Positions 1 through 35,510 of a stretch of 64,000 bases of DNA are shown piece by piece (the stretch's first letter is position 1; each line of letters starts with the position of its first letter). Under the pieces are notes generated by a model. It was not told the DNA's origin. It saw only the letters and a list, made by a program, of their open reading frames with translations, and ran no database searches. The DNA lies in NCBI RefSeq assembly GCF_949628265.1, contig NC_088788.1, positions 5,580,001-5,644,000 of the forward strand, given 5' to 3'. This DNA comes from Cloeon dipterum. Taxonomy: Eukaryota > Arthropoda > Insecta > Ephemeroptera > Baetidae. The translations under genes were made by a program, and so were the position numbers.

Positions 1-62
1 TGTAACTTCAACAAATTTCCCAGATGAGTCCCCAAGACTTATCTTTTATTATTTGTTTTCAG

Positions 63-2454
63 TTTGAAGCAAGGTGCCCTGCTGAGGTGAAAGCGAAATT
101 TGATCAACTCAATTCGTTTAGTGGAAAGGAACACACAACCCAACTGGAGCGGATTGTCAAGCAGCACACCCCTGTATACGAAAAATTCAATTTCAACGTT
201 CTGCGTAATGCTCTCGGACATGTAAATTTTTTTAAAAACTTGTTCACAAAATATTTGGTGCAATTTAAAATTTTTAGCTCCCAGATGCTTCTCGGAGTCA
301 ATACTTCGACAGAATCTTTCCTGGGATCGTGTCCTTGGCCAAGGATCTGCCTGGAAAATTAAGCCATCGTCCTCTCGTATTCCTCACACCTGGCGTTACC
401 CTCGAGCTGAGGAGAGACGAAATCGCGTGTCTGTTGGCCAACGCGTACCTCTGCACCTTTCCATACAGGGATTTGTTCACGTCGACGTTGCCGACTGTCA
501 ATTTCATCACGTAATGAATTAATTTTGCTTTTTTAAACATTAAAATCAAGCAATTAATTGTTTATTTCAGGTTGTTCAGTGGCCAGCCTGGCAAGGACAA
601 GCGTGAGAGTGCTAAAGTGGAGAAACTGAAGTGCCTGTTTGCCTATTTTAGCAAGGCGATGGAGTTTGGTAGAAGAAATTTTGTTTATGATGATCTAAAA
701 ACTTACATCTTATTATTCTGGCAGGTCCTGAGGGTGAAGAAAAGGTGTCTTTCTCCAAAGTGGCTTTGAGTGTAAAGCCTGACTGGGAGAATTCACACAA
801 GCCAATGAAAAACTTCAACGTTGAAGAGTTGCATGGGAAAATTGAGGATTTTGAGGGAATTCAAGTTGACTTTGCTAACAAGTAATAGCCTACCAATTTC
901 AATTTATTACGTTATTTATAAATCTTTATGCTAGGTTGATCGGTGGAGGAGTGATTGGTCGTGGCTGCCTGCAGGAAGAAATCCGGTTCATTACATGTCC
1001 GGAACTGATCACTGCTCGACTCTTCACGGAACAGCTAGGAAATGACGAGGCCCTGGTCATCACTAACTTTTGGCAATACGCTGATCACTCAGGCTACCAG
1101 GACGAATTCAAATACGAGGGGCCTTTCACAGGGTCAAATGAAGTGAAAAGAACGCTGGTCGCAATTGACGCGTCCGACTTTTCCGACTTCACGAATGACT
1201 CTAAACTTGAAGGATTGGTAAGACTGATTTTTGCTGCAGTTGAATTATTTGAGGAAGAAATTCATTATTATTTTAAATACATAAATTGTCCTGTTTGTCT
1301 GAAAATTAGAGTGTTTATATTTTTGAACAGGATGTGGTGATAATTACTGTAGTAATTGTTAAAGGAAATTAAATTTTCGTCATTTGAGCATTTCCAGCTG
1401 ATATAAATGGTTTTTCGATGAAACTATTTTTGGGAAATATAATAACAGCAATTGATGCAACAACGAAAATCTAGATTATGCTTAATTCTTCAAAAATTTA
1501 CGTAGCTTTATCACGTTTTGTTGTCTTTTTCAGTTCAGGAAAATAAATCCCATTTTTATTGAAGCTTTATATGCTTCTAGAAAATCGTAATTGCTCAAAA
1601 AATTTAGCGATTTAAAAAATTGTCAATTTAAATTTGTGGAAATTAACTTCGTGTAGTTTCAAGATATTTTTTATTTTCAAAACTGGAAAAAGCGAAAATT
1701 TTTAAAATTTGTTATTTTTATACCTCCAAATCTTGGGTTGCAACCATCAGAATTTAAAAAAAAATGCCCACCGTTTGATTCGTATCGACATTGACCTACC
1801 ATGACCAACTGTTAAGGAGTGGAAAATCTAAAAAATACAAAATTTAAGTAATATTCAGCCTTATTTTTATCTGAGGGGCTTTTTATATTATTATTTTAAA
1901 AAGGAACAACCTGAAAAAAATCTTTTGGTATATTGAAAATCTGTCCTTTGTTCTGGTTCCGTGTGAAAAACCGAAAAAGGACCGGATTCCGGTTTCAAGT
2001 CTCTATTTCAAGTGCCTAATTCCTATCAATTATTTCAGTGGCTGAGTTCCGAGGACCACACCAGTAGGCAGTATTTGAAACAAGTCATCGACAGGGATCT
2101 GAACAAAGCCTACACTGGCTTCCTGTGCCAAGAGTTGGACAAAAGTCACCACATTGCCACTGGAAACTGGGGAGGAGGCAACTTCAATGTACCAAATAAT
2201 CATAAAATCATTAATTTATTTTATTAATAAATTTTCCTTTGCAGGGTGATCCCCTTTTGAAGGCAATGATTCAGCACGTGGCCGCTTCGGAGGCTGAGCG
2301 GGAGCTCCATTACTTCCCCTACCACGACCTTTCCCTCAAGGAAATGCTGGAGGGCAGTGCATTGGCCACCAGGGGCAAAGGAACAGTTGGAGAAGCATAT
2401 CATGAGCTTCTCAACTATGCCAAGGAGAAAAATCCCTATCCTAGCGCTTTTTAA
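63..2454 (+). CDS. Parg: Poly(ADP-ribose) glycohydrolase, copy 1 (5' end outside window)
   Basis: Seven exons are visible: 63-221, 278-510, 571-668, 725-881, 935-1217, 2039-2188 and 2245-2454 (TAA). All junctions are GT-AG and phase-compatible, giving 429 residues without a stop. The first coding exon lies before the window. The catalytic signature GGGVIGRGCLQEE is encoded at the start of exon 935-1217. Other PARG landmarks follow in the usual order: VDFAN before the signature, RLFTEQL, AIDA, LNKAY, ATGNWGGG and the final TVGEAYHELL. PARG hydrolyses ribose-ribose bonds in poly(ADP-ribose) and reverses PARP signalling in nucleus and cytosol. A second intact copy follows in tandem. The 820 bp intron 1218-2038 is much longer than the others and I see nothing recognisable in it. 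Family assignment is firm; activity is inferred from intact catalytic residues. Confidence 0.93.
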
Positions 2455-3828: not shown

Positions 3829-6517
3829 ATGGACTTGACGGTAAAACATGTCAGAAAACGAATGGGACAGTACCAAGAATCCCTTTCAGGAATTTTTAAT
3901 AACAATGAAGCCGCCAGTAGCAGTCACAGCTCAAGCAGTCCTTCGGTCGGTGCCTCACAATCAGGGCAGCACAAAAGATTTGTCGCCATGCCCTATCCAA
4001 CGAACCACGATGGCTCTTACAATGTAATTTTCCAACATTCAAACGAGTCTTTGACAATGAGTTTATTTTAATTGGTTTTCAGCGTGAAGCAAAGTGCTCT
4101 GCTGAGGTGAAAGCGAAATTCGACCAGCTTAATTCGTTCAGTGGAAAGGAACACACAGCCCAACTGGAACTGATTGTCAAGAAGCACACTCCTGAATATG
4201 ATAAATTCAATTTCGACGTTCTGCGAGTGGCTCTTGGACAGGTAATTTTTTAAATCATACAAAAATTCTACATCGGAAAAATTTGAAAATTTTTTGGAAA
4301 AAATCTATAGAGAAATTTTTACAAGCAATTTTATTTTGTGCAATGAGACATGGCTTGTAGTTTCCTGAAACCAGCTCAGTTGACATGAAAGTCAATTCAA
4401 ATCCAAAAATGTTCCAAAAGTTGCTCTATTTTCTAGCATGATTTTTTGGAAGAAAAAAAAATCGCACCTAAGTAATTTTCATGAGTTTTTAGGTATTTAA
4501 ACTAGTTTTTTAGTGTCTATTCGCACCAGTAAATTTTAAACACAAAAATTTTGGATAAATATTTTGTCTAAAGGCTAATTTAATTTTATTCTAATTTATT
4601 TTCGGTCGTGCATTTCCATAAACACATCGGTAATTTAACTGGAAAAGGCATTTTTTCGGGCTTGAAATATTTTTAATTTAATCTCAACTATTGTTTTGAA
4701 ATGCAGTGTTTTAACTAAAATTTCATTCTTTTTTTTAGCGAGTTTTAGAATTGAACAGAGCCAGAGAAAAATTGCTAATGAGATGTAAAGTTTCCTTAAT
4801 CTTATCTCACTGTTAAAATATTAAAATTCATAGGGAAAACCTTTTTCGTCGTCGGGAAATCATCAAAAATCTCAAACCAAATCATTCTAAAAAAAAAATT
4901 TGATCCTTTTCTAGCTCCAAAGTGATTATCGGACTGAATACTTCAACAGCATCTTTCCTGGGATTGTATCGATGGCCAAGAAACTGCCAGACAAATTCGG
5001 CAATCGCCCTCTTGTATTCCTCACAGCTGGTCGTTGTCTTGAGCTGAAGAGAAAGGAAATCGCGTGTCTGTTGGCCAACGCTTACCTCTGCACCTTTCCA
5101 AACCGGGACTCGAGGGCGTCCAAGTTGCCAACTGTCAATTTCATCACGTAAATGACTAATTTTTAATTCCGATATGAGATTTAAACAGTTCATTTCAGGT
5201 TGTTCAGTGGTCAGCTGGGCAGGGACAAGCGTGAGAGTGCCAAAGTGGAGAAACTAAAGTGCCTGTTCGCCTATTTTCACAAGGCCAAGGAATTTGAGAA
5301 AAGTAATTGATCTGCAAACTTGACTCGTTGATTTTAATTTTAAATTTTACTATTCTCGCAGGTCCGGAAGGTGAGGAAATAGTGTCGTTCACCAAAGTGG
5401 CTTCGGATGTAAGGCCTGACTGGAAGAATTCGCGGAAAACGATGAAGAACTTCTTTGTTGAAGCGTTGGACAAGAAAATCGAGGATTCTATAGGAATCCA
5501 AGTAGACTTTGCCAACAAGTAATTAAATATAATGCCTAAATCAATCTGCAATTTTTAAACTTTGATAGGTTGATTGGTGGAGGAGTGATTGGCCGTGGCT
5601 GCCTGCAGGAAGAAATCCGGTTCATCACGTGTCCGGAGCTGATCGTCGCTCGACTCTTCACGGAGCAGCTCAAGGACAACGAGGCCCTGGTCATCACCAA
5701 CTTTTGGCAATACGCTGATCACTCAGGCTACCAGGATGACTTCAAATGTTTGAGGCCTTTCTCAGGGTCGAACAACGTGAAAAGAACGCTGGTCGCAATC
5801 GACGCGACTGACTTTTCCAACTCGAGTGGTTCCAAAACAGGAGGATGGGTGAGAATGGTAATTGATTACAGCTGTTATTAACGAAGAAAAGTTATTTTAA
5901 AAATAGAATATCAAGAAAATGTTATTAAATTTTCTGTCTGGTCTTTTTGCAGAAATATTTCCCATTTTTTCATCCTTAGCAGAGACAATAATTTGAAAAC
6001 TAAATTTTATAACCTTAAATACGACATTTTGTTTTATTATTAAGTTAAGAAATCAATTTGCATTAAAAATACTGTAAATAATCTCTTCTCTGTTATTTCT
6101 TTAATTAATGCAGCAGTCGGAGGACAACACCAGCCGGCAGTACTCGAAACCAGCCATCGACAGGGAGCTGAACAAAGCATACGCTGGCTTCTTGTGTCAG
6201 GAGTTGAGCCCAAACTTCCACATTGCCACTGGAAACTGGGGAGGAGGCAGTTTCAAGGTATCAGAAAATCATAAAATCATTAATTTTTTTTAAATAAATT
6301 ATTCTTGCAGGGTGATCCTCTTTTGAAGGCAATGATTCAGCATGTGGCCGCTTCGGAAGCTGAGCGGGATCTCTATTACTTCCCCTACCACGACTACTCT
6401 CTCAAGAAAATGCTGGAGAGCAGTGTGTTGGCCACCAGGGGCAAAAGCACAGTTGGAGAAGCATACCGAGAGCTTCTCAGCTATGCCAAGGAGAAAAGTT
6501 TCCGATCCAAGCACTGA
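3829..6517 (+). CDS. Parg: Poly(ADP-ribose) glycohydrolase, copy 2 (complete)
   Basis: Eight coding exons join in phase: 3829-4023, 4083-4241, 4915-5147, 5199-5302, 5362-5518, 5569-5848, 6114-6257 and 6311-6517. They give 492 residues. The catalytic signature GGG-X7-QEE is at residues 286-298 (QEE at 296-298, the family's general-acid glutamates). ATGNWGGG follows near residue 413; vertebrate PARG usually has NWGCG there. The N-terminus is short: about 65 Ser-rich residues precede the conserved region, so the long regulatory N-terminus of vertebrate PARG is absent. It has the same exon structure as copy 1, with many replacements but no stops or frameshifts, so it looks functional. Remnants of this copy's first exon and 3' flank recur at 29470-29600, 9600-9830 and 30360-30610. 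Confidence 0.94.
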
Positions 6518-7087: not shown

Positions 7088-7241
7088 ATTTATACTGAAT
7101 AGTGGGTCTCACTTGGACAGCTGCGGGAGAATCAGAAGCACTGACGACCGAGACAGTCAGAGAGGAAGCACGCACACCTTATGGGTCGCATTATTGTGAT
7201 TTCGACCCTGAGGAGAGAGAAAAAAATAAAACTGCTCTAAA
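7088..7241 (+). promoter_or_regulatory. TATA promoter and untranslated leader exon of GTPase unit 0
   Basis: TATTTATA at 7088-7095 is followed by an initiator-like TCACTT at 7110-7115 and a leader ending in the donor gtaagt at 7242. The same arrangement, with related sequence, starts GTPase A (12347-12511) and B (22455-22620). No ATG opens the leader frame, so it is best read as 5' UTR. Here the downstream GTPase body is missing. Confidence 0.6.
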
Positions 7242-7259
7242 GTAAGTTGATAAGTTTTT

Positions 7260-7832
7260 CAATTACTTTTTCAATTTGCATGGTAGTTGAATAATAACTA
7301 TGAACATTATATTTCCAATGTTGGACTTTACTGCGAGCGATATTGCTCGAAAAATAATCGAAAAGAGGGCATTAAAATTTTCAAATTTGCTATCTGCCAA
7401 AAAAAGATACAGGAGGGAGATACTCCAGGACTGGTAAATCAAGTAATCAATGGCGTGTCTCAAGTAGCAACGGCCGGGACTGCCGCCGCAGCCACTTCAC
7501 CGTTGTTCAAAGTGGCAGCAATTGCAGCTGGGGCTGTAGTAGGACCAGCAATTTCATTGACTACCTCATATCTGTTTAGTTCTAAGAAAATTCCATGGTT
7601 AGTAGATATATTAAACATTGGGGAGTCAGGGAAATGCAGCTGTGAGCTATTCAAATCCTACGATGGGGATGATGGGCAACCCGCCCCTGGCAATTCAGAT
7701 CAACGAATGAAGTTTACTGACCAACTCCTCGCCTATAAAGATATTAAGCAAGATTATACTGCTTTTTCCGCCGAATATGGATATGACGATGAGGAAGATT
7801 ATCAAGAGCTAATGCGATTCTGGAAATTATAA
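7260..7832 (+). pseudogene. GTPase unit 0: tail-only remnant, GTPase domain deleted
   Basis: From about 7405 to the stop at 7832 the frame matches the last-exon C-terminus of GTPase A, B and C: a hydrophobic Ala/Gly-rich segment (AAIAAGAVVGPAISLTTSYL), then GESGKCSC, PAPGNS and a Glu/Asp-rich end. The sequence before it, about 7260-7400, resembles the start of intron 1 in unit A. One deletion therefore appears to run from intron 1 into the last exon, removing P-loop, helical and Gly-rich parts. The open frame (181 codons from an upstream TTG) has no suitable ATG. It could be a pseudogene, or be translated after splicing from an unseen exon. Confidence 0.7.
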
Positions 7833-8344: not shown

Positions 8345-9345
8345 AACTCTAGTCTGATTGTGATCCAATGAAGATATAGCAAGACAAATGGGAAAAGACG
8401 CTGGGAACGTCTGAGGGTCCGCATTTGGACACTCCAAAACCTACCACACCGACCAGCGACGTCTGTTCAATTGCGTTTGCCAGTTAGAAAAAAATTTAAA
8501 GTCTTTTATTATTATTAAATTAAATTAAATCAGACCTGCAGGAGAAGTGGTCCACCGCTGTCACCCATGCAAGCGCTTCCGTTCCTCGATCCGGCGCATT
8601 TCTGGCAGGTGTCCCGCACCATCACTCTGTGCTCATCTCTGCAAATATGCCGAGGCACCCGTTTCACTGGCATCTGCCTCAGCTCGTTGCTCTTTGGACC
8701 CTCTGAAATCCCAACAAATTTATCATTCAAATCAATATATAACAATTGATTAGTAACATTTTCTCTATTTTATTCTAAATAAATAGAATAAATTATTTAT
8801 TTCGTTTTTTAAGAAATTATGTAAACACCAGGTGTTCCAAATTCATTTAAAATTTTCAATTGTAAAATAGTATTTAGGAATATTATTGAATATTTTAATA
8901 AGAAAATTATGAATTCGAAACTAAATAATTCAATCAAGTCTGTATTAGCACATCAGACGCATTATAACGAATTCAAAATATTTTTATTTCCAATCCTTAC
9001 GCTCCATTTCTGTCATGCCCAATCCAGCCACCTTGACGGTGCCCTGCTGTTCCTGCTCGGTGCCGTGACTGCCTGCAGTCCACGCAAGCAGATGGGCCTG
9101 ACGAACATGGAGGATTTCACCTTCTCCTTCAGCCTGATTAGGGCTACGTCGTTGGGAAACCCTTCCACGAAGTCGTACTTGTACTCAGGGTGCACAATCA
9201 CCTCTTCCACGTCCACATCCAATGGTTCGGCGGCGCATTTCGGTCTCAGGGGGCCATAAATTATGTTTATTAGGTCATCTGGCGCAGCCACCTCGTCGCA
9301 GTTGCTCGACAGGTTCAACTCGCCTAGACGCAACCTCCCTTAAAA
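8345..9345 (-). pseudogene. CLIP/S1 serine protease pseudogene 1 (exons 4-6 only)
   Basis: The equivalents of exons 4, 5 and 6 of the intact protease are present in reverse order (about 9345-9005, 8705-8534 and 8457-8345). Exon 5 keeps the catalytic GDSGGP. Exon 4 has an insertion after PICLRGLQ that shifts the frame. Exon 6 lacks one base in the tract read as ATGACG in the intact gene, and has lost the stop codon. Exons 1-3 (signal peptide, CLIP domain, catalytic His) are absent. It cannot encode a working protease. Confidence 0.85.
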
Positions 9346-9599
9346 TAAATCCAAAATGTTAAAAAGAAAGGAATAGTATATACATGCGGATGAAAAAAGA
9401 AGGCTGGCAAACAAATTTATTCAAAACAGAATTCCAACATTCTCATTAAAATCAGTTGATGTACGCGATACGCTTGGTTTATCATTTTTTGTGCTGATCT
9501 TTTGCTAGTTTTTTTGTCATTTTTAAATTTTTTATGCAATTTTAACTATATGAGACTCTTTCCTAACAGACGTTTTGAGCACACAGTTTCCTAGTTAGT

Positions 9600-9830
9600 T
9601 TTTATAAAAATTTCCGATCAAAGCACTGATTTTAAACTAAAAAGTACTAGACATAGCTTTAATGCAATTGTGACATTGTCCTATTACTACTAATGGTATA
9701 ATCTAAGGTTAACGTTTAATTAATTCAAACTTGTCTTTAATCAACCATATTATTAATTGTAAGATGGCTAATAAAATCCGCAATTTTGGTTAAAAATCTG
9801 TTTATTTATTGAATGAGGGAAAAAGAAGAT
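9600..9830 (+). pseudogene. Detached PARG 3'-end remnant
   Basis: Similarity to the last codons and 3' UTR of PARG copy 2 begins with 'aaaaatttccgatcaaagca' and runs through the 'gtcctattactactaatggt' tract. No upstream PARG coding sequence is attached. It shows that a PARG gene once preceded GTPase unit 1, as in units 0 and 3. Confidence 0.7.
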
Positions 9831-9834
9831 CACG

Positions 9835-11590
9835 TTTATGCAGTCGCGTGTCATAAATGTAAAACCAAAACAATTTTTAAAGGGGGATGCAAGCTAATCA
9901 TAATTTCTGATGTGATTATTTGTTAGCATAAATTTTGTATTGTTTTTAAAAGATGAAGATAATGAATTAGCACTTCGTAGTTTTCAAAGTAATTACTTAA
10001 CCAGGCGCCATGACCAGACGCCCGAAGGAGGCTACATTTGGGCTGCTTCTCAGAAGGTTTTCCGACCTCTGTCGAGCAGCAACCCCTATGCGCGCCAGCC
10101 AGTCCGTAATACGAAACCAACAACATTCCCAACTTAATAGTTTTCCTAATTGTGGCTGAAATAAATTCAACGCTGCTTAAATATGAAAAAAGGTAAAAAT
10201 ACGGAATTTCCAGGCTTGATCGTCACGTGTGTGCAAAAAACGCTTTTCTTCCAAGGCCCGCGCGGATTGAAAATGTCACGTGTAGGTGCAATGTTATCAG
10301 TGAGACTTTAATAATCACTTTTCCTGTCTTTGAGATAAAATTTGGGAGCGCGAGATGTTACACATTCACAGGAAACCGTAGAGAAAGTATAAAAGTGGCA
10401 AACATTAAATAAATAATAAATGTATTAATGTGTGAGCAGATATACGCGAATTTTAACAGGTCTTTTGGACGGGATTTTTTGGCGTTTAAATTTTTAGGTG
10501 ACGGTTATGTTTTATATAGTTGCTTAAAGTACTCGTTATTAGAAGTGAAATTTCGGGTTTGAAGCCACTAGAAAAACCTAATTAATAATTGTCGTTCCCA
10601 ATTTTTCCGTTAACCAGAAAATCCCCGAATACCTCGAATTCTATGAATGAAATGTGGACAGCAACTCTTGACCGAGTTTAGGTATCACGTACCTTCAAAT
10701 TGAAATTTAAAAACCGGCTCGTGGCCACTCGACCGCGCATTCCCTTTGTGCAGCGAGTTCTCCACTCGATCCGTTCGTCAATATGTATTTTTTCGCATTT
10801 GCTTAGATACAAAAAGAGGGCCTAGGGTTGATCTAGGAAGGTCATAATTGACCTTCAGTTTCTGCCACTGACGTGACCCTGAGATAAAATTTCCTAAATT
10901 TCCGATTTCATCGAACTTGGTGTCTTTCACAGGGATTCTCGCCAATGCAAAGCTCAAATGTAACGGCAAAACTGCCGAATGACAAACCACGTTGGTCTTG
11001 AAATAATTTTGGTAACCATTAATCATGACATGATATTAAAAACGGTCAAAATTTGAAATCTTTAATTTAAGAAAATATCCTTATGTTTTGATTTTTTCAG
11101 CACATGAAATTCAGATTGAGAGTGTAATAAAGAACGATTTTATTCTTACATTGAACACAAAGGTGCTATTAAATTAACAATATAAAGGTTTTTCAAATTT
11201 GTTAAGTATTAGAATTTTAAATAAATAAATGTAATACGCAAAGTGTTGCAATCAAAGCTAGATCGAGTTAGACTTTTTCTTGATAAGTCGGAGATAAGGT
11301 TTCGTCTGTCGTCAAATTGGTTCGATCAAAGATCATAACTGAAAGAATAACAATTACTAAGTCACTAAAAGATTTAACAAATAAATTTGTTAATGCATAT
11401 CTTCATATATCGAACGGGTAAAAATCACGATTCATGGATTTTAAATTAATTTATTTCAGCTGTCAATGAAAGAGTTGAATAAATTAAAAAGGTTGATTAA
11501 GTTGTAAGTTAAATGTAGATTGATGATTGATTGATTGCAAAAGATAATCACTGGTAGTTTTTAGTTAAATTGAACAGTTTCATTACAAAA
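9835..11590. repeat. Duplicated spacer block, copy 1
   Basis: The block is nearly identical to 18893-20668 over most of its length, including the tract around 10190-10800. A diverged third copy covers about 30672-31080. It contains no supported gene; reading frames here are short and differ between copies by indels. It lies upstream of the GTPase promoters and moved with the module. Confidence 0.8.
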
Positions 11591-12340
11591 TAATGGTCGA
11601 TTTGGACGAAATTTTAAGCATTGAAAATTTCAGGTGATTTTATTTAATAAATTTTATTTAGGTACTGGTTAGGAAATGAAATTCCAGATTTTGAGGCCCA
11701 GGAGAGGATGCGTACGATATTGTTCATAATTCCAAAAATATAGAAAAATACTCGATTCGTTTTCCCGAGCATGACCTTTAATTAGAAAATGTGCCCGTCA
11801 TTTAAAAAAATCTAGTTTTCTGTGTCCTGTTTACTTCAACGCACTGTGACGATCAAAATAGAACCACTAAACCAACCTTCAGGTTCTTACCCTGAAATGG
11901 CCCTGAGGGTCAGATTGCGAAAAATGTCCAAAATTTTCAAGTTTGGTGTCGTTTTTAAACTGAGTTTTGAACCACCAGAGTTCAAATTTTGCTCTGAATA
12001 TTTCTCACGGCTTAGGAAAAATATGTTTTTGGAAATTTTGCATGCCAACCATAACGATTTATATGGTTTTAGACGATTTAAAGTGTGGTTATAGCTTAAA
12101 TTTGCATGATTCGTGCTCATTTAGTAGTCCTGCGATGATCTGCAGCTTAGAAAAAATGGTCAATCGTCTAAAATTCACAGCCCTAGAAATAACCTCGTTT
12201 TCGGGCCCCATGTCAGCAGAGAGCAATGCGGAAAAAAGAGGGCGATTTCATGGAATGAGTAATGGCATGTGATAAAAAGTCTAATTTGAATCTCATTCCT
12301 TTTTTAATCGTTTTCTCTGAAAGAAAGTCTAAAGGTCATG
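11591..12340. other. Upstream flank of GTPase A
   Basis: Bases 11591-11892 are missing from unit 2, where the GC-rich insertion 20670-21969 occupies the corresponding place. From 11893 ('aaatggccctgagggtcaga') the duplication with 21969 onward resumes. Short reading frames at 11822-12272 are not conserved in frame between the copies, so I do not call genes. Confidence 0.5.
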
Positions 12341-12346
12341 CTGTAC

Positions 12347-12511
12347 TATAAAAAAGCGGTGGACTGATTAGTGGGTATCACTTCAACACCTGCGGGAGAG
12401 GGAAGCACTCGCGATCGAGACGAACAGACGGAGGCAACGCGAACACCTTGCGGGTCATATTATTTTGATTTCAATCCTGACGGGAGAGAAAAAACCTGAA
12501 CTTTGATCCGT
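12347..12511 (+). promoter_or_regulatory. TATA promoter and untranslated leader exon of GTPase A
   Basis: TATAAAAA at 12347-12354 is followed 31 bases later by an initiator-like TCACTT (12378-12383). The leader ends at 12511 before the donor gtaagt. It contains no ATG-initiated frame, and compared with unit B it has an indel that puts a stop in the otherwise open frame. It should splice to 14021. Confidence 0.6.
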
Positions 12512-14057: not shown

Positions 14058-14069
14058 ATGGAAAATTAG
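14058..14069 (+). promoter_or_regulatory. Minimal upstream ORF before GTPase A start
   Basis: In exon 14021-14119 an ATG-GAA-AAT-TAG micro-ORF lies 11 bases before the main ATG at 14081. It is conserved at 24454-24465 in copy B. It could lower translation of the main frame; that is inference. Confidence 0.4.
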
Positions 14070-17000: not shown

Positions 17001-17295
17001 TGCAGCAGGGACTCTAGTTTCTTCATTTTTTACCTTATCTAAGTCTAAGACTTTCTTATGGAAAGTACTAATATTAAACGAAGGGGAATCAGGAAAATGC
17101 AGCTGTGTGCTACCCAATTCCTACGATGGGACAGAAGGGCATCCCGCCCCTGGTAATTCAGAACAACGATTCAAGTTCATGGACCGACTCCTCGACGCTG
17201 AAGATATCAAGCGAGATTTTGCTGCCTTTTCCACAGAAAATGGTAATGACAACGAGGAAGATTGTCAGCAGCTAATACAATCCTGGAATTCTTAA
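14081..17295 (+). CDS. Large P-loop GTPase with collagen-like stretch and hydrophobic tail, copy A
   Basis: Coding exons 14081-14119, 14173-16136 and 16554-17295 join in phase to 914 residues. The G1 motif GNTGCGKST is at residues 34-42, G3 DCAGF at 101-105 and G4 NKVD at 178-181. A Lys/Glu-rich helical middle follows. Next come a Gly-rich, collagen-like stretch near residues 605-655 (GxxG repeats such as GSDGQDGGDG), a second Gly-rich block in the last exon (GGRGGDAG, GKGGVGGEARG), a hydrophobic segment (KLAAIAAGTLVSSFF) and a conserved acidic end. It is not a classical GIMAP or IRG by motif; I recognise only a G-domain NTPase. The untranslated leader is 12378-12511 and exon 14021 carries the start. 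No signal peptide, so it is probably cytosolic or membrane-associated through the tail. Confidence 0.85.
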
Positions 17296-18807: not shown

Positions 18808-18892
18808 TAAATTTAATCCAAAGTGTTAAAAAGAAAATCCGCAATTTTGGTTAAAAATCTGTTTATTTATTGAATGAGGGAAAAAGAAGATC

Positions 18893-20668: not shown

Positions 20669-20669
20669 T

Positions 20670-21969: not shown

Positions 21970-23855
21970 AAATGGCCCTGAGGGTCAGATTGCGAAAAAT
22001 ATCCAAATTTTTCAAGTTTGGTGTCGTTTTTAAACTGAGTTTTGAGCCACCAGAGTTCAAATTTTGCTATGAATATTTCTCATTGCTTAAGCAAATTTTG
22101 TTTTTGGAAATTTTGCATGCCAAACATAACGATTTAGATGGTTTTTGTCGGTTTTAGACGTTCTTTTCATATTTAGACGGTTTCAGACGGTTTAAAGTGT
22201 GGTTATAAGAGCTTGAAATTGCATGATTCGTGCTCATTTAGCGATGATCCGAAGCTTAGAAAAAATGGTCAATCGTCTAAAATTCACAGCCCTAGATATA
22301 AACCTCGTTTTCGGGCCCCATGCCAGCAGAGAGCAATGCGGAAAAAAGAGGGCGATTTCATGCAATGAGAAATGGCGTGTGATAAAAAGTCTAATTTGAA
22401 TCTCTTTACTTTTAATCTTTTTCTCTGAAAGAAAGTCTAAAGGTCATGCTGTACTATAAAAAAGCGGTGGACTGATTAGTGGGTATCACTTCAACACCTG
22501 CGGGAGAGGGAAGCACTCGCGATCGAGACGAACAGACGGAGGCAACGCGAACACCTTGCGGGTCATATTATTTTGATTTCAATCCTGACGGGAGAGAAGA
22601 AAACCTGAACTTTGATCCGAGTAAGCAAATTACAGTTTTTCAATTATTTATTCACTCTGTATATTATGTATACATTAATATTTCCTAATGTTAGAATTTT
22701 CTCGAGTGATTTCCTGTGGCAGAATAATAATTGAAATGAATTAAAATGATTCTCATCATCAATATATTTGATTAACTTAATATTTTCTAGCGCTGCACTG
22801 TAAAATTTTGTTAGATTAAAATTATGAAAGCAAAATCTTGAAATATACATAGGCGTGAGACTTGAGCAAAAGTCTAGCCCCAGTTTGAATTGCATCAGTA
22901 CTATTTTAGAAACCTTAAACAAAAGATTTTAGTCCAGATTTACACGAATTGTTCGTAACGATATTTGATCTTTGATAGTTTGCCAAAATTCGTTAAAAAT
23001 CTGAAAAAATATGACTTTTGCAATGGCTCAGAAATTTCTTGGGGCATCTCAGGCATTTTAATTTAGCTTTTAAAATAATGCATAGTCCGATCATTTAAAT
23101 AGCAAAACTGTAATCTCCAATTGGAGCCATAATAAGTACATTAATTTCCCCTGATAGCCGAAAAAGTCTAAGTGTTCTTGGTTGTTTCGATATTACGTAA
23201 TGAAAATTTCCTCTTTCTTATTAGAGTGAGCTCTTATGATGCAACTATATCATGGATGACTTTTTTCTGATTGTTAGCAACAAAATACAGACAGATTTAT
23301 TTTTATTGTCAAACGTTTTAATAAAAAACAACCTTGAAAAAATATACTAGTTCATATTAAATAAATAAAGAGATTTTTTAAATTTTATCTTAATGAAAAA
23401 CTAGTTACCAGCTCTGTTGAAAATATTTTTGTTTGAAATTTTAAAAACAACTTTTTCGTTTATTCTTTTAACTAATTATTCCCCAAATTAAACCGCGGAG
23501 TTTTATTTAATGAGATATTAGAGCTGATTCGATTTAGAGCTGAAGTAAGTTCACAGAAATAATAATTATCCCTGTGGCATTTCTCTGTTCACTATCACTA
23601 AGGCATGAGAGGAAATGAAAAGTGGTCTTGCATGTGGTGCGTTAATAGTCGAAGCGATGTAGAGATTGTAGAGGTGATTGATTGTAACGCACGGTCTGGG
23701 TTTGTTCTCAGATTCGCAGGCAGCGGGAGTAGTCCACACAAGCGGACGCTCTTGCGAGGCTGCATCTGATTTTGGACCGCCATTGTGTTGGCTATAGTAC
23801 GTATACTATCGATAATAATTTTGGCATCAATATTCGCTGCGTAGATGCAAAAAAA
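21969..23855. repeat. Duplicated GTPase upstream/intron block, unit 2 copy
   Basis: It matches 11893-13733 (GTPase A flank, leader and intron 1) with scattered substitutions and indels. Bases from about 23855 to 24135 have no counterpart in unit A, so intron 1 of B carries roughly 280 extra bases (or A lost them). Confidence 0.75.
22455..22620 (+). promoter_or_regulatory. TATA promoter and untranslated leader exon of GTPase B
   Basis: TATAAAAAA at 22455 is followed by an initiator-like TCACTT about 31 bases downstream. The leader ends at 22620 before gtaagc. The leader frame is open here but has no ATG and is broken in unit A, so it is called 5' UTR. Confidence 0.6.
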
Positions 23856-24476: not shown

Positions 24477-27400
24477 ATGCAAGACGATAAACTCGATCTG
24501 GATAAGGTTTTAAAAGTAAGATGAAAAAGTATTGTTTATCAAATTCACAATAAAAATTAACCTTCCAGAAAAGCCACAAATTGATACCTGCTGCTTCAAG
24601 AGAAGCAAATGAGATAATCGCACTAATTGGAAACACAGGATGCGGAAAAAGTACCCTGCTCAAGTTTTTAACCAAGGATAAATCACTGAAAATCATAAAA
24701 AACGCTCAAGAACAATGCATCTATGTAGACTCACAAAAAACCATCGGTGGCGTCGGGTCTGAGAGCTTTGAATCGAAAACTCTTCTGCCCAACGTTGTTA
24801 AAGATGAAGAAAGTGGATGCACGATCGTCGACTGCGCCGGCTTCAATGATACTAGGAGCAGCGAAATGGACTTTATTGCCTCCTTCATGAATAACGAGTA
24901 TCTGCAGATGGCCAAGAGGATCAAAATCGTCATCGTCGAGAATGGCGTGAATTTCGACCTGAACTTGAACAGGGACGCGTTCGTGAAAAACCTGATGCAA
25001 ATTTCTCTGCTTCTCAAATTCAATTTCTCACTCTTAAAATCTTCAATTTGCATCATTGCAAATAAGGTGAATTCCAAGTTTTCGGATGAAAAACAAATAG
25101 AATTTATTCAAAAATTCTTGGAGGAACTGAAGAATTTCATCACCAAAAAGTGTGGCAAAGATGCCGACTTTGAGGACGACAACTGCCAGAGAGCTTTGCA
25201 AATCCTCAGTTACTTGCAGGACGGTTGCATTGGTATCCTTCGGAGGCCATCAGAAGTCACAGATGACCCGTTGGAATTGGACGATTTGAAACAAAACCAC
25301 ATCGACCTGAGGAAACTCATTTTTGAAAAATTACAGTATGCTGACAATGCTTGTGACAAATTCAATATCACCGTGGCTCCAACGACACGCCTTTGGATAA
25401 ACGGGTCGCTGATTGATGAATCATATATCGCGTTAAAATCGTCAATGAATGCCATTATAGAAGGTTTGAAGAAACGGGTTAAAGAAAAACTGCACAACGC
25501 ACAAGGAAAACTGAAGGAGAAAATATCAAACATTATCTTAGACGGACGAGAGATCATCGCAACGCTTGAAAACATCAAGTCTGAAGAAGACGTCATTTCT
25601 TTGAGCCGCACTTACTCTCAACCAGAGGAAGCCGAAGAGCTCAATTTTTGTTTGAGGAAACTGAAATTCACCTACGGAGTGGTTGGCAAGGAAGAAAATG
25701 AGATAAAAGAATTCATTGTGGGATTAATAGACCACCGCAAAATCTTGATTGAGGAAACCGCTAACATCGTGGAATTCTATGAGATGATGACTGACTTTGT
25801 CAAAGAAACTAGTCGGTATGACGTTCTTTTGAAAAAAGACGAAATCCTGGATCGCATCAATTCCATGAGTGAAACCAATTTCCAAACGGAACTTTTGACT
25901 ATTTCTGGGGCCATTAACGTTAACGAGAAAACTGCAAACCGAGTGCTAAACATGAAGAAGATCAGCTCCGCTCATTTGGAAAATTTGAAATGGTATTTGA
26001 GAAATAGTTTCAATGATAACTTGTCTATCTCCCTAGAAAACAGCAGCTGCACCATCCGTGGTAAATATATCATTCTAAGCCAGCAGCAGGAATTCCTGCA
26101 GAAGAATCGTTCACGGAGACGCCAAATCGTGTTGGAAGCCACTCAAGTTGTCTTCATTGACTGTGACTTAACTTTGGAGAGTACTCATCTGGTTTTGGTA
26201 GCACCACTGATTGAAATCGTCAACGAAAAAAAGGCGATCAAGCTCTTGGGAGAAAATGGTGCTCAGCATGCAGAGACGAAAGCTAAATCGTCCAAAAACG
26301 ACACTTCAGGAGAAAATGGTCTCCATGGAAATCCAGGATTCAGTTCTGGAAATTGCAAAATAATTGCTCTGAATATAATCAATCCTCAACTCCTGGAAAT
26401 TCACTCGGAAGGAGGAAACGGCAGCGACGGCCAGGACGGAGGTGATGGCAACAGCATTTCATGCGCTATTCCTGTTTTCCAAGGATACCAAGTCAAATCT
26501 AAGATCTTTGAGACGGATGAATTTCTAAGGTGGGTCTACTTAATTTTGAGTACATTTTTTGAGTGCATTGAGTGCATTAAGAAATATAAATTAAAGGTTG
26601 AAAATTTCCTCCTCAGCACAATTTCAAATTTAGTGCAGTTTGATGAGGGTTACGTTTTTCTATAAAATTAAATTGAAGGATAAAATTTTCTAATCATTAT
26701 AAGACATTGAGATTGTTGCATTCTCTAAATGTAAGCTATATTAGAAAACATAACATATGGCATACATATATGGACTAATAATAAATAAAGAGCCATCTTA
26801 CATAGCACTTAACTTTAAATGAAATGTATTTCTTTTAGAAAATTTTCATTCTTACAGGAATAATCGGGAGAATTTTGACAACGTTGAAATTGAAGGTGTT
26901 TCAAAGTCAACGTACAAGGCAAGTGAAGAACCTCCAATTTTTGACATACGCTTCGAAAATCACCCTGATCTTGATGAAGTGGAGCCCTCAGAAGGTGGAA
27001 GAGGTGGTGATGCCGGACAGTCAGCCGCGGCTGGAGATGTGGAGGTGTGTGTTAAAAACAGATCAGCCAAAAATCAAGTGGCTATATTTCGCCAAGACGG
27101 AAAAAATGGAAATGCTGGGAAGGGAGGTGTAGGCGGAGAAGCCAGAGGAACGTATCAAATATACAAATGTTCAGTCTCCAATAACCAGAGACAGCAGGAA
27201 GAGGAAGTGAATCCAGCAGCAGCGCGAAATAAGTTATTATCTGAAATAGCGTCGACGGGGACCATCGTCGCAATATCAGCTATTAACCCGTTTATTGGTG
27301 TGGCAGCACTTACAGCAAGGGCTCTATCATCATTGACTCCCTCATCTGTGCCTAGTTCTAAGATTATCTCATGGAAAGTAAAAATATTATTCAAAGGGGA

Positions 27401-27608
27401 ATCAGGACACTACAGCTGTGAGCTATTGAAATCCTACGATGGGGCAGATGGTCATCCCGCCGCTGGAAATTCAGAACAACGGCTTAAGTTTATGGACCAT
27501 CTCCTCACCTCTGAAGATATTAAGCAAGATTTTGCTGTTTTTTCCGCCGTACATGGACATGACGACGAGGAAGATTGTCAGCAGCTAATACACTTCTGGA
27601 AATTTTAA
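24477..27608 (+). CDS. Large P-loop GTPase with collagen-like stretch and hydrophobic tail, copy B
   Basis: Coding exons 24477-24515, 24569-26529 and 26858-27608 join in phase to 916 residues. The layout matches copy A: G1 GNTGCGKST, G3 DCAGF, helical middle, Gly-rich stretch and hydrophobic tail. The G4 motif reads NKVN instead of NKVD (codon 25070-25072), losing the aspartate that normally contacts the guanine base, so nucleotide specificity or activity may be changed. The first roughly 270 residues are almost identical to copy A. Residues encoded at 25388-25579 and the hydrophobic tail segment are strongly diverged. Leader and micro-ORF are conserved, so the copy is probably expressed. Confidence 0.85.
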
Positions 27609-28938: not shown

Positions 28939-29285
28939 TAATATATGTATTTGTACCAGTGTTTGGGTAGGATAGGCGATACTGCATCGTTGTACCAAAG
29001 ATATACACACAAATAATGTTGTTTAGTGCTCTTTAATATATGTATACTACATTAATACACAGTACAATCATGTTTAGTAAAATTAATATGATTAACCTGC
29101 CAAAATTGTCCAGGCAGCTTAAGGAGAAAGTTTTTGAGGCCGCAAAGTTATTAATACTAATATTTTAATCTAAAATATGGTAAAAAAAACTTTTGATACT
29201 TCTTGTGTTGAAAATGAATAAATGAAATTCTAAACTAAAATAATTCATTGTTAGCTGATGCATATAAAAATTTTCATTTTTCAAC
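28939..29285. other. Spacer, no gene seen
   Basis: The AT-rich sequence includes a diverged copy of the GTPase-to-protease spacer ('attaatatgattaacctgcc' near 29081). No gene supported. Confidence 0.4.
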
Positions 29286-29289
29286 TATA

Positions 29290-29465
29290 CATCACACTAG
29301 TCTAATCTTGTCGATGATCCAGTTGAGGTAGCAAGACAAGTCGGAAAATACGCTGGGATTTATGAAGTCCGAGGTGCCGCATTTGGACGCTCCAAAACTA
29401 ACCACTCCGACCAACGACGTCATGTTCAATTGCGACTTCCAAAGTCTACCATAGCCCTGCTGCTT
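29290..29465 (-). pseudogene. CLIP/S1 protease remnant (exon 6 plus a scrap of exon 4)
   Basis: Bases 29300-29440 match exon 6 of the intact protease with an inserted tract and no frame. They are joined to about 22 bases resembling exon 4 ('gccctgctgcttctgctcgg', about 29454-29475). Directly after that comes PARG exon 1 sequence on the opposite strand. This is debris from rearrangement. Confidence 0.75.
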
Positions 29466-29469
29466 CTGC

Positions 29470-30390
29470 TCGGTGGGACAGAAGAGCCGGGAATCCTATC
29501 CAGGAATTTTCAACAAGTAACAATGAAAGCATGAATGGCAGTCATAGCATAAGTCCTTCGGTAGACGTTTCAGGGCAGCACAAAATCGATTTATACAAAT
29601 AAAATAGCGGAAATATGAACCCTTCTCTTTAATTTATTTTTTTATTTTTTTAATGACATTGGTATCATATATATTGTGTTTCATACTGGCAGCAGTCTGA
29701 GGACAATATATCAGCCGGCAGTACTCGAAACCATTCATCGTCAAAGAAAAGAGCGAGTGATGGTGATAAGTGGTTTGGAGGCGTCGAAGGCGGAATTCCG
29801 GGGGATCCGCGTATACTTCCATTTTGTGTGCTGTTTAGTGAACGATAATATGATGATAAAATAAAATGTCTTGATAAGACGCGGCTTTCAATTTTTCTAT
29901 ATACTTTTTTGGGAATCGAGATTATTAAGAATAGTTTGCTTAAGGAATTTCTGGAATTGCTGCAGCTGGCTGTCGTAGAACCCACAGCGAGAAGAAAGGC
30001 TTTGGTTTAATTATAAGGACTATCGGCCTGAGGATTCAAAACCATAAATTTAGAGAATTTTTTCCCTCTTTCTCGCAAGCATATGCCAGGAGTTGAGCTA
30101 AAGTCACACCACATTGCTACTGCAAACTGGGGAGAAAAAAAACATTTTTTTAGTAAATTAGTCTTGCAGGGTGATCCCCTTTTGAGGGCCAATATTCAGC
30201 ATGTGGTCGCTTCAGAAGCTGAGCGCGAGCTCTATTACTTCGCTTACCACGACTAATCCCTCAAGAATACACGCTGGAGAGCAGTGCGATGACCACCAAG
30301 GGCAAAAGCACAGTTTGATAAGCATATCGAGAGCTTCTCAGGTATGCTAATGCTAACTAAGGAGAAAAATTTCCGAATGAAGCACTGATT
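29470..30390 (+). pseudogene. Parg: PARG remnant, rearranged and interrupted
   Basis: Three parts match PARG copy 2 in order: first-exon sequence (29470-29600, ending around GQHK), part of exon 6114-6257 (29694-29750 and 30085-30125), and the last exon (30170-30390). Exons in between are gone. About 330 unrelated bases (29750-30085) interrupt the seventh exon. The last exon has an in-frame TAA where the intact copy reads YHDYS, and frameshifts. The 3' flank of PARG type continues to about 30610. Confidence 0.8.
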
Positions 30391-30671
30391 AAAATTCTTT
30401 AAAATTTAAAGCAAGTGACATTGTTATATTACTAATATTATGTCAAGATTAATACATAGCTAATTAAAAGTTATGTTGATCCATTCCAAAGCAAAATATA
30501 AAATATTCCAGAGCTAACGGATACAATGCAAACTAGTATTTGATCGACAGTATGAATTGTAAGATTAATAAAATGCACAATTTAGGGTAAAAAACTGTTT
30601 ATTTATTTAAGGAGGGGAACACAAGCTCAAGTTGATGCAGTCAATTCATATATATTAAGACTAAAAAAACC

Positions 30672-31080
30672 TAGGAAGGTCATAATTGACCTTCAGGTTC
30701 TGTTCCAGATGGGACCCTGAGATAATTATTACGTAAATTTCCGATTTTATTGAACTTGGTGTATTTCACAGGGTTTCTCTCCAGTTTAAAGCTCTAATAT
30801 AGCGGCAAAAGTGCCGAATGACAATCCTGAAACCGGTCCTTGAAATAATTTTGGTAGCCATTAATCCTGACGTGATATTGTTAAAAACGGTCTAAATTTG
30901 AAATCTTTAATTTACGAAAGTATTCCTCATGATTCGATTTTTTTAACACATGAAGTTCACATTGAGTGTTGAATAAAGGACGATTTAATTCTTACACTGA
31001 AAACAAAGGTATTATTAAATAAATAAATAAAAAATTATAAACATGTTTTTTTCCTATTTTTTAAGTACATAATTTTTTAA
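30672..31080. repeat. Duplicated spacer block, diverged copy 3
   Basis: It resembles 10840-11230 and 19910-20300 ('aggaaggtcataattgacct' shared), with many substitutions. It marks the position of a third module unit. Confidence 0.7.
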
Positions 31081-31236
31081 TTTGATATAATACGCTAAGT
31101 GGTGCAATCAAAGATAGATAGTTAAAATTGTTCTGATCATTTTGTATTTAATTTGATATAATACGCTAAGTGGTGCAATCAAAGATAGATAGTTAAAATT
31201 GTTCTGATCATTTTGTATTTAATTTGATATAATACG
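31081..31236. repeat. 71 bp tandem duplication
   Basis: A 71-base unit starting tttgatataatacgctaagt begins at 31081, again at 31152, and partially at 31223. The first two units are identical as read. Confidence 0.9.
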
Positions 31237-31452
31237 TTCAAATCGTTCAAAACTGATTTAAAATTTCATCATTATGCATCTTATTCGGTTTAATATTGTG
31301 TTTAAATTCATTCTTATCTGGTTGGTATTTCCATAAATTAAATAATGACACAATGTTTTTGAGGCATGGCCATCTCTTGCAATCTTAACTATGAGTTTGT
31401 GATATTTTTGATATCATACGATTGCCACAATTTTATTACATTAATATTTCAG

Positions 31453-32224
31453 GAACATCCGGGAGAATTTCCACGACGTTAAAATTGAAGGTTCTAATAC
31501 AAAGTCGACGTACAAAGTAGGCGAAGATCTTCCAGTTTTTGACATACGCTTCGAAAATCACCCCGAACTTGATGAAGTGGAGCCTTCAGATGGCGGGAGG
31601 GGTGGTGATGCTGGACCGTCAGCCGCGGCTGGAGAAGTGGAGGTGTGTGTTAAAAACACATCTGCCAAAAATCAAGTTGCTGTATTCCACGGAGACGGAA
31701 AAACTGGAAATGCTGGGAAGGGAGGTGTAGGCGGAGAAGCCAGAGGAATGTACCAAACTTACAAATGCGCAGTCCTCCCTTACCAGAGACAGCAGGAAGA
31801 GGAAGTGAATCCAGGAACACTTAATCAAGTAATCAATGGCATATCTCAAGTAGCATCGGCCGGGACCGCCATCGTGGCCACTGTACCGATGTACAAAGTG
31901 GCAGCAATTGCAGCTGGGGCTATAGCAGCACCAGTAATTTCTTGGATCACCTCATCTGTGTCTGGTTCTAACAATAAGAATATTTCATGGAAAGTAGAAA
32001 TATTAAACCCCGGGGAGTCAGGAAAATGCAGCTGTGAGCTATTAAAATCCTGCGATGGATCAGACGGACATCCCGCCCATGGAAATTCAGAAAAACGATT
32101 GAAGTTCATGGACCAGCTTCTTGCATCTGAAGATATCAAGCGAGATTTTGCTGCCTTTTCCGCCGAACATGGATATGACGACCATGAAGATTATCAACAG
32201 CTAATACAATTTTGGCCATTTTAA
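31453..32224 (+). CDS. GTPase last exon only, copy C (GTPase domain absent)
   Basis: A full last exon with the conserved acceptor (atatttcag) is open for 256 residues to TAA. It contains the Gly-rich block, the hydrophobic segment (KVAAIAAGAIAAPVISWITS), GESGKCSC and the acidic end. No G-domain exon, leader or TATA promoter of this gene lies upstream within the duplicated spacer. The frame has stayed intact, which suggests recent loss of the 5' part or continued use, for example as an alternative last exon of copy B. Status as gene or pseudogene is open. Confidence 0.6.
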
Positions 32225-32735: not shown

Positions 32736-35510
32736 TCACTCCAGTCTAATTGTGTCGATGATCCAGTCGAGGTAGCAAGACAAGTCGGAAAAGACGCTGG
32801 GAACGTCCGAGGTGCCGCAGTCAACCGCTCCGAAACTGACCACTCCGACCAGCGACGTCATGTTCAATTGCGTCTGCCAGTTAGAAATCAAAAGGTTAAA
32901 AATCTTCTTTTGTTTTTATTAAATCTGACCTGCAGGAGAAGTGGTCCACCGCTGTCACCCATGCAAGCGCTTCCGTTCCTCGATCCGGCGCATTTCTGGC
33001 AGGTGTCCCGCACCATCACTCTGTGCTCATCTCTGCAAATATGCCGAGGCACCCGTTTTACTGGCACCTGCCTCAGCTCGTTGCTCTTTGGACCCTCTGA
33101 AATCACATTTTTTTCATTTTACACCAATTTAACAATTGAAAAGTGACATTTTCTCAATTTTATTTTAAATAAATTTTTATTTTTTGATTTTTAAGAAATT
33201 ATCTGAACAGGTACGTCAACCAAATTTACTAAAAATTTAAAATGAAATAATATTCCTTTTGGAAATTAAATCTATGCAATAAAATTATTGAATATTTGAA
33301 TGAGAAAAATCTCACTTCAAAACTGAATAATTGAATCAAGTCATAGAACACATTTTAAGTCGCCTGTTAAATTCAAAAGATTTTTTCAAATCCTTACGCT
33401 CCATTTCTGTCATGCCCCATCCGGCCACCTTGACGGTGCCCTGCTGTTCCTGCTCGGCGCCGAGACTCTGCAGTCCGCGCAGGCAGATGGGCCTGACGAA
33501 CATGGAGGATTTCACCTTCTCCTTCAGCCGGATCAGGGCCACGTCGTTGGGAAACCCTTCCACGAAGTCGTACTTGTACTCAGGGTGCACGATCACCTCT
33601 TCCACGTCCACATCCAATGGTTCGGCGGCGCATTTCGGTCTCAGGGGGCCATAAATTATGTTTATTAGGTCATCTGGCGCAGCCACCTCGTCGCAGTTGC
33701 TCGACAGGTTCAACTCGCCTAGACGCGCACTCACCCTGAAATTTAAGAAAAAAATAAATAATTAAGGTAATAAAAATTATTTTCATTAAAATTAGTTGAA
33801 ATGCGTGATCTGCTTGTTTTATAATTTTTTATGAGGTGCGTTTTTAGCACAAAAACTTAAGTTATATATACAAATAAATGTGGCTATAATTTTCAATATA
33901 AAATAAGTTTAATTTCGTGAGCAAAAAAAAAATTTATATTAAATTTAGACTACAGCGTTGTGTTTTCTGTAAATTACTCACAGTGTCATACTCTTCTTCC
34001 TTGGTTTGGCACAATGAGCCGCGGTTAGCACGTATCTGTCTGATATCAATGTGCCGCCGCAGCTGAACCTCAGAGCTCCATTATCTGTCTCATACAAATA
34101 AATTAATCCAAGGAAAAATGTGTCTGGGGTAAGGAAATTCCATTTTTTATTAGAAATTAGAACAGAAAAACTGTCTGAAATTCTTATTCTAGAATTAATC
34201 TAAAAAAATAATTTAAACCTTTGTCTAATTTTTAGGGAATTTTCATTGAAATAACATTCGATCCAGACTCACCAGCAAATCTGAGCATGGCCAGCCAGGG
34301 CAGTTCTCCAGCCTTGACGATTTCTCCGAACGAGGCCCTGACTGTCAGCGGCTGGGCACAGTTTTCCTGGAGCATCTTCCGCACGGCCTGCCTCCGCGAT
34401 TTCTCATCTGCGACCTGCGTGTCGTTTTCATTGCCGACCCGGTTCTCCGTTCCTTTGCCGTCAGTAATGGCGGCGTGGGTGCTATTATTCTTCCACACGT
34501 AGGAAGTTACAATTTTGTAAAAGGCCGGACAGCAGACTCTTTTGTGTCCACGACACGGATGGCGGAGGAGGTGCTTGGACGTCGTGGCTGGGGAGAAATG
34601 ATTGCCGATGCTGTACTTCCGGCGCAGCGCCGAGCTCGTTTTCGACTGGGCCTGCCCGTGGACGGCGTAGCCGATGTAACGCAGGCAGTTCTGGAAACCC
34701 ATGCACCTCAGCCCTGAAGAGCACTCGACACTTTTGGGTTCATATTGATCTGTTTAAATAAATATTTTTATGATAAAAAATTTATTCTGATGTCAGATAC
34801 AGATTTTCTTGAAGTAGGAATGGGGAATTTGTGTTTTAGTGAGGTTATAATATTCTGTAGGATTATTGTTTTTATATTTATGTGTATTACGATTTTCATG
34901 ATGAAATAGAGCGATACTGTTACTTATCAGAAGAGGAAAGAAGCCAGTTTTTAAGCAATGACTAACCGTTTTTTTAAATTTCTAATTATTTTAAGAACCA
35001 AACGAGCAAATTTTGTTTTTCCCAAATATTGTTAAAAAAAATAGTTGATGAGAGGAAGTGCACTGTCTCGTCCCTTAAAATTAGGAAAATTTATACTGTT
35101 TAGGGCAGAAAAGAGGGATAAAAGATAAATTGAGTACATGTTTGGAAAGATATATAAAGATGAAACATACATCTCCCGCAAAATCCAAAATAAAAGCACT
35201 TTGTTCTCGAATTTTGGCTCGTAATTGCAAATATTGCAAACCTTTAGACAGTTTAGACAGTCTTTCGTCTTGCCTTAAAAAATAATTTAATAGAGTTATT
35301 TAACTACAGCTTTCTGTATATTTCTCCTTTGGAAAAATCGAGCCAAATAAATTAATTAGCTCATAACAAATAATTTAATTTTGTCACAAAAGAATTTCAA
35401 GCAGAAGGTATATTTAAATATTACTTACTCCATTCCAAAATGACTTTTTGCGTGAACGCTTGCTGAACGGCAAAAACAGTAAACAAAAATGCAATCTCGG
35501 CAACTTTCAT
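32736..35510 (-). CDS. Secreted CLIP-domain chymotrypsin-like serine protease (intact)
   Basis: Six exons join in phase: 35510-35429, 34749-34273, 34084-33982, 33735-33398, 33096-32930 and 32873-32736. They give 434 residues. Residues 1-20 are a signal peptide (MKVAEIAFLFTVFAVQQAFT). Six CLIP cysteines are at 37, 43, 49, 93, 100 and 101; the 43-residue gap between the third and fourth is long. The protease domain has His210 (TAAHC), Asp285 (NDVALIRL) and Ser382 (GDSGGP), all intact. Residue 376, in the S1 position, is Ser, predicting chymotrypsin-like preference. Where IVGG normally follows the activating Arg, the sequence after Arg165 is ASFG. CLIP proteases act in haemolymph cascades (melanisation, Toll activation). 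This is the only complete protease of the cluster and the likely source of the three degraded copies. Confidence 0.9.

Follow-up and report, generated by a model that had tools for sequence, protein, structure and literature searches.

The window analysed here, the whole stretch of 64,000 nucleotides G000:C3:5580001-5644000, comes from a genome of 190 Mb in 10 contigs, and its genes contain introns; the CLIP-type protease among them points to an arthropod. The window was compared with itself by self-BLAST, which revealed four homologous segments in positions 1-35,510 with E values down to 0. Together with exon-level tblastn (E<=1e-3), this gave the order of parts in a segment as a poly(ADP-ribose) glycohydrolase (PARG), the upstream region of a GTPase, the GTPase itself and then a CLIP-type serine protease on the opposite strand. 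A first-pass annotation had described four such units, and both searches confirmed the units with the members it had listed. Unit 0 holds PARG2, a GTPase tail and a dead protease (8373-9345, truncated and frameshifted); unit 1 holds a PARG 3′ scrap (9606-9845), GTPase A, which is whole, and a second dead protease (17782-18836, truncated). In unit 2 GTPase B stands with protease and PARG debris (the last protease exon at 29196-29441 and PARG 3′ flank at 18831), and in unit 3 a PARG remnant and a GTPase tail are followed by the live protease, whose start codon is at 35510. The features are as follows, in window positions with the evidence in brackets.

1..2454, plus strand: PARG1, an intact-looking poly(ADP-ribose) glycohydrolase gene with its first exon left of the window (PF05028; alignment with PARG2 and the left flank)
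3829..6517, plus strand: PARG2, intact-looking tandem duplicate at the left end of the GTPase array, starting unit 0 (self-BLAST; alignment)
7094..7273, plus strand: unit 0, remnant of a GTPase upstream exon (matches 12363-12545 at 75%; alignment with A, B and the C1 copies)
7374..7829, plus strand: unit 0, GTPase tail fragment with its 5′ part missing (tblastn)
8373..9345, minus strand: unit 0, truncated protease with Asp, Ser and last exons only and a frameshift (tblastn, identity comparison)
9606..9845, plus strand: left edge of unit 1, last PARG codons and 3′ flank at the unit junction, about 240 bp past the unit 0 protease piece (self-BLAST)
9770..13736, plus strand: unit 1, GTPase A upstream region with probable untranslated exons (self-BLAST, alignment)
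14081..17295, plus strand: GTPase A, exons 14081-14119, 14173-16136 and 16554-17295 (splicing gives 914 amino acids)
17782..18836, minus strand: unit 1, truncated protease with Asp, Ser and last exons and the same end border as in unit 0 (self-BLAST, tblastn)
18831..20669, plus strand: unit 2, GTPase B upstream region, beginning in PARG 3′ flank right at the protease junction (self-BLAST)
20669..21969, no strand assigned: unit 2, insertion of a multi-copy nested repeat (genome-wide matches; gap in the match between units 1 and 2)
21969..23854, plus strand: unit 2, rest of the GTPase B upstream region (self-BLAST, alignment)
24477..27608, plus strand: GTPase B, exons 24477-24515, 24569-26529 and 26858-27608 (splicing gives 916 amino acids)
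29196..29441, minus strand: unit 2, protease debris, last exon (self-BLAST, tblastn)
29519..30642, plus strand: unit 3, PARG remnant with a weak N-terminal piece, exon 5/6 pieces with stops, and 3′ flank (self-BLAST, residue-level match)
30671..31208, plus strand: unit 3, what is left of the GTPase upstream region, without a GTPase head (self-BLAST, tblastn)
31445..32224, plus strand: unit 3, GTPase tail exon with an open frame and no head (tblastn)
32736..35510, minus strand: live CLIP-type serine protease with signal-like, CLIP-like, His, Asp, Ser and last exons, at the right end of the array (start codon at 35510)

In the self-BLAST, PARG1 (44-2569) matched PARG2 (4066-6616) in pieces at 78-85%, and 9770-16302 matched 18831-26715 in three pieces at 89-93%. 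The GTPase tails with their adjoining protease pieces (7413-9369, 16530-18836 and 31429-33746) are alike at 74-86%. The GTPase is the sole gene that is whole in more than one unit (A and B), units 0 and 3 having only tails (7374-7829 and 31445-32224), and whole PARG2 stands at the left end of the array and the whole protease at the right.

All three protease duplicates in the array are truncated at the 5′ end and consist of the last one to three exons only. The signal, CLIP and His exons each gave one match in the window, that being the live copy (tblastn, E<=1e-3), and the CLIP exon has a single match in the 190-Mb genome. Matches to the Asp exon above 50% identity were limited to the live copy and two truncated array copies, all others lying at 40-47%. 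The live gene matched PF00089 (E=3.5e-10) and contains TAAHC, NDVALIRL and GDSGGPL in that order. Its CLIP-like exon has a six-cysteine pattern by eye and matched none of the Pfam families at E up to 0.1; the CLIP label is taken from the spacing of these cysteines.

The junctions between units fall within or beside the two neighbouring genes. The Asp exon of the live protease begins at 33736, and likeness to the live gene stops at 33726 for unit 0 and 33746 for unit 1, that is, at the border of this exon; units 0 and 1 resemble each other slightly further, to 9369 and 18836. At the junction of units 1 and 2, PARG 3′ flank follows the protease directly, at 18831. At that of units 0 and 1, PARG 3′ sequence begins at 9606 with approximately 240 bp of other sequence in between. 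Because of these junction positions, the stretch repeated in units 1 and 2 runs from the 3′ end of PARG to the middle of the protease, and only the GTPase lies wholly inside it. The junction of units 2 and 3 is unlike the others in that the last protease exon alone is followed by the PARG remnant (about 29519-30385), which contains stop codons.

Loci across the genome were counted by merging matching stretches by hand; the totals (9 for PARG, 13 for the GTPase and 16 for PARP) are lower bounds. The GTPase head has at least 31 matching stretches at 13 loci. The array is the one place where PARG and GTPase loci come within 5 kb of each other (one of the nine PARG loci); elsewhere at least 0.84 Mb separates them. 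Under random placement at least one such neighbour would occur with p=0.016, a figure that is no evidence because the locus was chosen for its adjacency. A second GTPase array lies on contig C1 (41.10-41.22 Mb), with four GTPases of the same subfamily and six of a second subfamily (35-41% identical) on the opposite strand. PARG exons had no match in the 120 kb around the C1 array (tblastn, E<=1e-3), i.e. at none of the four copies. The search for the last two protease exons covered the window with its C3 flanks and the C1 region. On C1, pieces of these exons lie convergent beside two of the four same-subfamily GTPases, ending in another intron of the protease, with 42-73% residue identity over 26-69 residues. 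This shared adjacency on C1 and C3 suggests that the GTPase and the protease were neighbours before the two arrays separated.

GTPases A (914 amino acids) and B (916) each have three coding exons with GT-AG introns and no internal stop. The sequence between PARG and GTPase, earlier called a spacer, is present in the units but is not a separate element. Blocks within it (approximately 11346-11507, 12194-12442, 20427-20589 and 22304-22550) recur at three of the four same-subfamily C1 copies, with the coding part 2-6 kb further on, the fourth copy having no block match; on this alignment the spacer is part of the GTPase gene, its blocks being probably untranslated. In the main exon, A and B differ by 2 synonymous and 2 non-synonymous changes over the first 227 aligned codons. 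Among eight later windows synonymous divergence (dS) is 0.06-0.09 in three, 0.18-0.37 in four and 0.72 in the last (19 codons), whilst the tails have a dS of 0.28 and a ratio of non-synonymous to synonymous divergence (dN/dS) of 0.90. The near-identical tract and the mosaic dS fit a conversion tract over the G domain, and we infer gene conversion as its cause. Within the subfamily of A and B (six copies) the main exon has a dN/dS of 0.31-0.44, and within the second subfamily one of 0.25-0.40. For the tails it is 0.37-1.04 over 28 pairs, including the broken unit 0 tail, with no pair clearly above 1.

We consider it very probable that a single GTPase gene, flanked by a PARG on one side and a CLIP-type protease on the other, has undergone birth-and-death evolution as a tandem array here. 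What looks like a three-gene module would then reflect the positions at which the copies were bounded, and the pieces of neighbouring genes would mostly be edge debris. Repeated unequal crossing-over, with breakpoints inside or just beside the PARG and protease neighbours, would have carried the GTPase into each new unit; in the copies that survive, the protease would be reduced to its 3′ part and PARG, if present at all, would be incomplete or decayed, and the originals, PARG2 and the protease, would be left whole at the array ends. We infer unequal crossing-over as the mechanism, and likewise the sequence in which events took place and any selection on the number of GTPase copies. Recurrent duplication and loss across the units, as proposed in the first-pass annotation, is supported, and so is its caution that proximity alone could produce the pattern. 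Its claim of three genes co-duplicating as a module, with members later lost, was not borne out, given that the duplicates have no match to the signal, CLIP or His exons, units 0 and 1 end at the same exon border and no PARG exon was matched around the C1 array.

Four observations weigh against the single-gene array. The breakpoint between units 0 and 1 is blurred by the roughly 240 bp, to which no origin is assigned. In unit 3 the exon 5/6 pieces of the PARG remnant are preceded by a weak N-terminal piece (60% over 25 amino acids, E=0.40); because the remnant possibly starts near the PARG N-terminus, one duplication event may have copied a whole PARG that later decayed. The adjacency of GTPase and protease recurs on C1 in the same convergent orientation, as a functional pair also predicts. 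Finally, the unit 0 protease exons are 95-99% identical to those of the live gene and the intron between them 74% (8240-9345 against 32640-33760), which simple decay does not explain.

The C1 adjacency bears on a first alternative, in which GTPase and protease form a conserved two-gene unit and PARG is a bystander. Convergent neighbours on both C3 and C1 are what this would predict, but what remains of the protease on C1 is in both cases fragmentary and confined to the last two exons, two of the four same-subfamily GTPases there have none, and, truncated copies aside, the only copy with CLIP and Asp exons is on C3. Moreover, the adjacency is accounted for if a single ancestral segment was copied along with the debris at its edges, and we regard a conserved pair as very improbable.

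Even less probable is a functional defence module of three genes, an ADP-ribose eraser, an immune GTPase and a cascade protease, turning over jointly under pathogen pressure. It is in keeping with the recurrent shared duplication, with the fast evolution of the GTPase tails (dN/dS 0.47-0.90 when A or B is compared with the other, with the unit 3 tail or with the four C1 tails) and with a prophenoloxidase-activating enzyme as the best solved relative of the protease. However, there is no second complete triplet, the protease duplicates are 5′-truncated and PARG lies away from the GTPase elsewhere in the genome. A shared compartment is also doubtful, since by eye the protease start resembles a signal peptide and the GTPase start, MQDDKLDLDKVLK, does not.

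The exon identities raise a further possibility, namely that the truncated exons are retained because antisense transcripts or small RNAs made from them, by read-through from the convergent GTPase genes, regulate the live protease. The pieces do lie antisense, downstream of GTPase tails. Between unit 0 and the live gene the Asp exon is 95.3% identical, the Ser exon 98.8% and the intron between them 74.0%, and 5 of 71 fourfold sites are changed, compared with 73 of 281 sites in the intron (Fisher p=3.5e-4); a contrast is also seen between units 0 and 1 (10/73 versus 77/274, p=0.014). By comparison, the unit 0 last exon is only 83.2% identical and its 3′ flank 73.0%. The unit 1 exons are 95.0-98.8% identical to the live exons, and the unit 1 copy shows no exon/intron contrast with the live gene (7/74 versus 16/294, p=0.28). 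Gene conversion limited by diverged introns yields the same pattern and is the simplest explanation of exon-limited identity. Judged from these sequences, a regulatory role would be very unlikely.

Uncollapsed haplotypes, an assembly artefact that the first-pass annotation itself had raised, would fit the 89-93% identity of 9770-16302 and 18831-26715 but are extremely unlikely, as the 5′ exons of PARG and protease are not repeated with the blocks, the junctions fuse PARG with protease, identity is a mosaic of 100% and about 70% in adjacent 100-bp steps, and a second array lies on another contig (C1).

The GTPases themselves carry GxxxxGKS, DCAGF (DNPGF in the relative at locus L026) and an NK- or TK-type motif, seen by eye in alignments, which we take to be G1, G3 and G4. 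Pfam AIG1 (PF04548) had no match in the genome at E<=0.001, was absent from the families matching GTPase A at E up to 10, and was not among the commonest 25 of the 52 families matching 13 other members. For the GTPase models (pLDDT scores of 76 and 79), VIA-align puts GIMAPs first but on a par with Toc34 and SRP-receptor beta, and Foldseek ranks GBP1 or Toc34 highest. The protein is probably a GTPase with a membrane-associated or scaffold role; its G domain would be of GIMAP/Toc34 type, followed by a helical middle and a Gly-rich C-terminal part with a fast-changing tail. The hydrophobic segment of the membrane-type tail reported earlier is borderline (best 19-residue mean hydropathy 1.29-1.97 in eight tails). 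Tandem clusters and fast-evolving tails make a defence role for the family possible. A relative at L026:1593-6500 (G000:C4:20952092-20956999) has a stop-to-stop frame of at least 1,636 codons, comprising a G domain, a Gly-rich part and a long unassigned stretch; a sequence search at E up to 1 matched no solved structure. A bacterial origin of the GTPase was rejected, with 10 of 263 stretches passing a pattern search of genome contigs and matching only P-loop residues 13-35 or 13-74; all ten are titled as cyanobacteria (two by their genus names). A viral origin was likewise rejected, none of 55 pattern stretches in viral contigs having passed.

It is likely that the genome holds a separate, apparently undescribed GTPase family and no recognisable AIG1 domains, whilst a regulator role through GTPase read-through as the reason for the near-identical protease exons is speculative. 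The two combined, with a GIMAP/Toc34-like family (at least 31 stretches at 13 loci; a frame of at least 1,636 codons) in immune-like tandem arrays and the truncated antisense protease copies of this array acting on the live CLIP protease, have only a very slight chance of both being right. A 2019 nematode genome paper (PMC6872716) mentions AIG1 42 times, which suggests that the absence of AIG1 from ecdysozoans is not the whole picture. That absence, from any ecdysozoan genome available in 2013, is stated in a study that also describes AIG1/GIMAP tandem arrays in the coral Acropora (PMC3723955). Another study describes such arrays in the snail Biomphalaria and gives the conserved box and IAN motif as defining features (PMC7053062). 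Among the papers listed for GTPases, GIMAP/AIG1, PARG and CLIP proteases, none dealt with this GTPase family or locus.

PARG splicing was judged from the alignment of PARG1 with PARG2 rather than from assembled gene models. The PARG1 exon at 879-1337 matched PF05028 (E=1.9e-25), and a 27-bp match to the first exon of PARG2 lies 30-56 bp left of the window, in the left flank of PARG1, a second, full-length-looking PARG. Over 395 codons the two have a dS of 0.38 and a dN/dS of 0.35; the exon frames of PARG2 are open and its GGGVIGRGCLQEEIRF segment is present. The domain occurs in at least 23 stretches at the nine loci, to our knowledge many for an animal. PARP catalytic exons, presumably tankyrase-like, were found beside PARG genes at G000:C3:7555001-7569000 (L037, L038) and G000:C5:5906501-5914500 (L039). 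At these two of the nine PARG loci a PARP match lies within 5 kb, 3.2 kb away on C3 and 1.0 kb on C5, the latter counting one match found by looking there (3.9 kb otherwise). With at least 16 PARP loci in the genome this nearness has p=4e-5 under random placement, a post hoc figure, and linked ADP-ribose writer/eraser pairs are possible. No PARP gene was found near PARG1 or PARG2 in the window and 60 kb flanks, the best profile match having E=0.12.

The 1.3-kb repeat in unit 2 (about 20669-21969) is multi-copy, with at least 58 genome-wide matches for 20720-21940; its outer ends (237 and 100 bp) are paired approximately 3.4 kb apart at two places, in the manner of terminal repeats. Related, near-palindromic elements of about 400 bp lie at 46103-46525, 60202-60636 and 62292-62684, with matches in the C1 region too. 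A tandem pair of similar open frames (40123-40719 and 42375-43094) is 91% identical in DNA over 510 bp, and the second, the only one scanned, had weak zinc-finger matches below Pfam cut-offs. Scans of the window for tRNAs (ARAGORN with the bacterial code) and Rfam families gave no match, and neither did a pattern of six TTAGG repeats.

The array illustrates how a gene that is copied again and again by unequal crossing-over can mimic a co-evolving gene module, and the two can be told apart by the positions of breakpoints and by whether the genes are linked at other loci. A second point of interest is a GTPase family that Pfam AIG1 misses although GIMAP and Toc34 folds are among the best matches to its models. 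Compared with known systems, the PARG genes match their family (PF05028), and their GGG...QEE segment aligns with a solved PARG; they differ in being spread over nine loci in the genome examined. The protease resembles CLIP-domain serine proteases in its signal-like start and in the order of its His, Asp and Ser motifs, but differs in that its CLIP-like exon has no Pfam match. Among solved structures, prophenoloxidase-activating enzyme I (PDB 2olg) is closest to the Asp exon (E=4.3e-10). Tandem arrays with edge-truncated neighbour genes are the ordinary outcome of unequal crossing-over, and in having whole originals at the ends and fused fragments at internal junctions the array described here differs from them in nothing essential.

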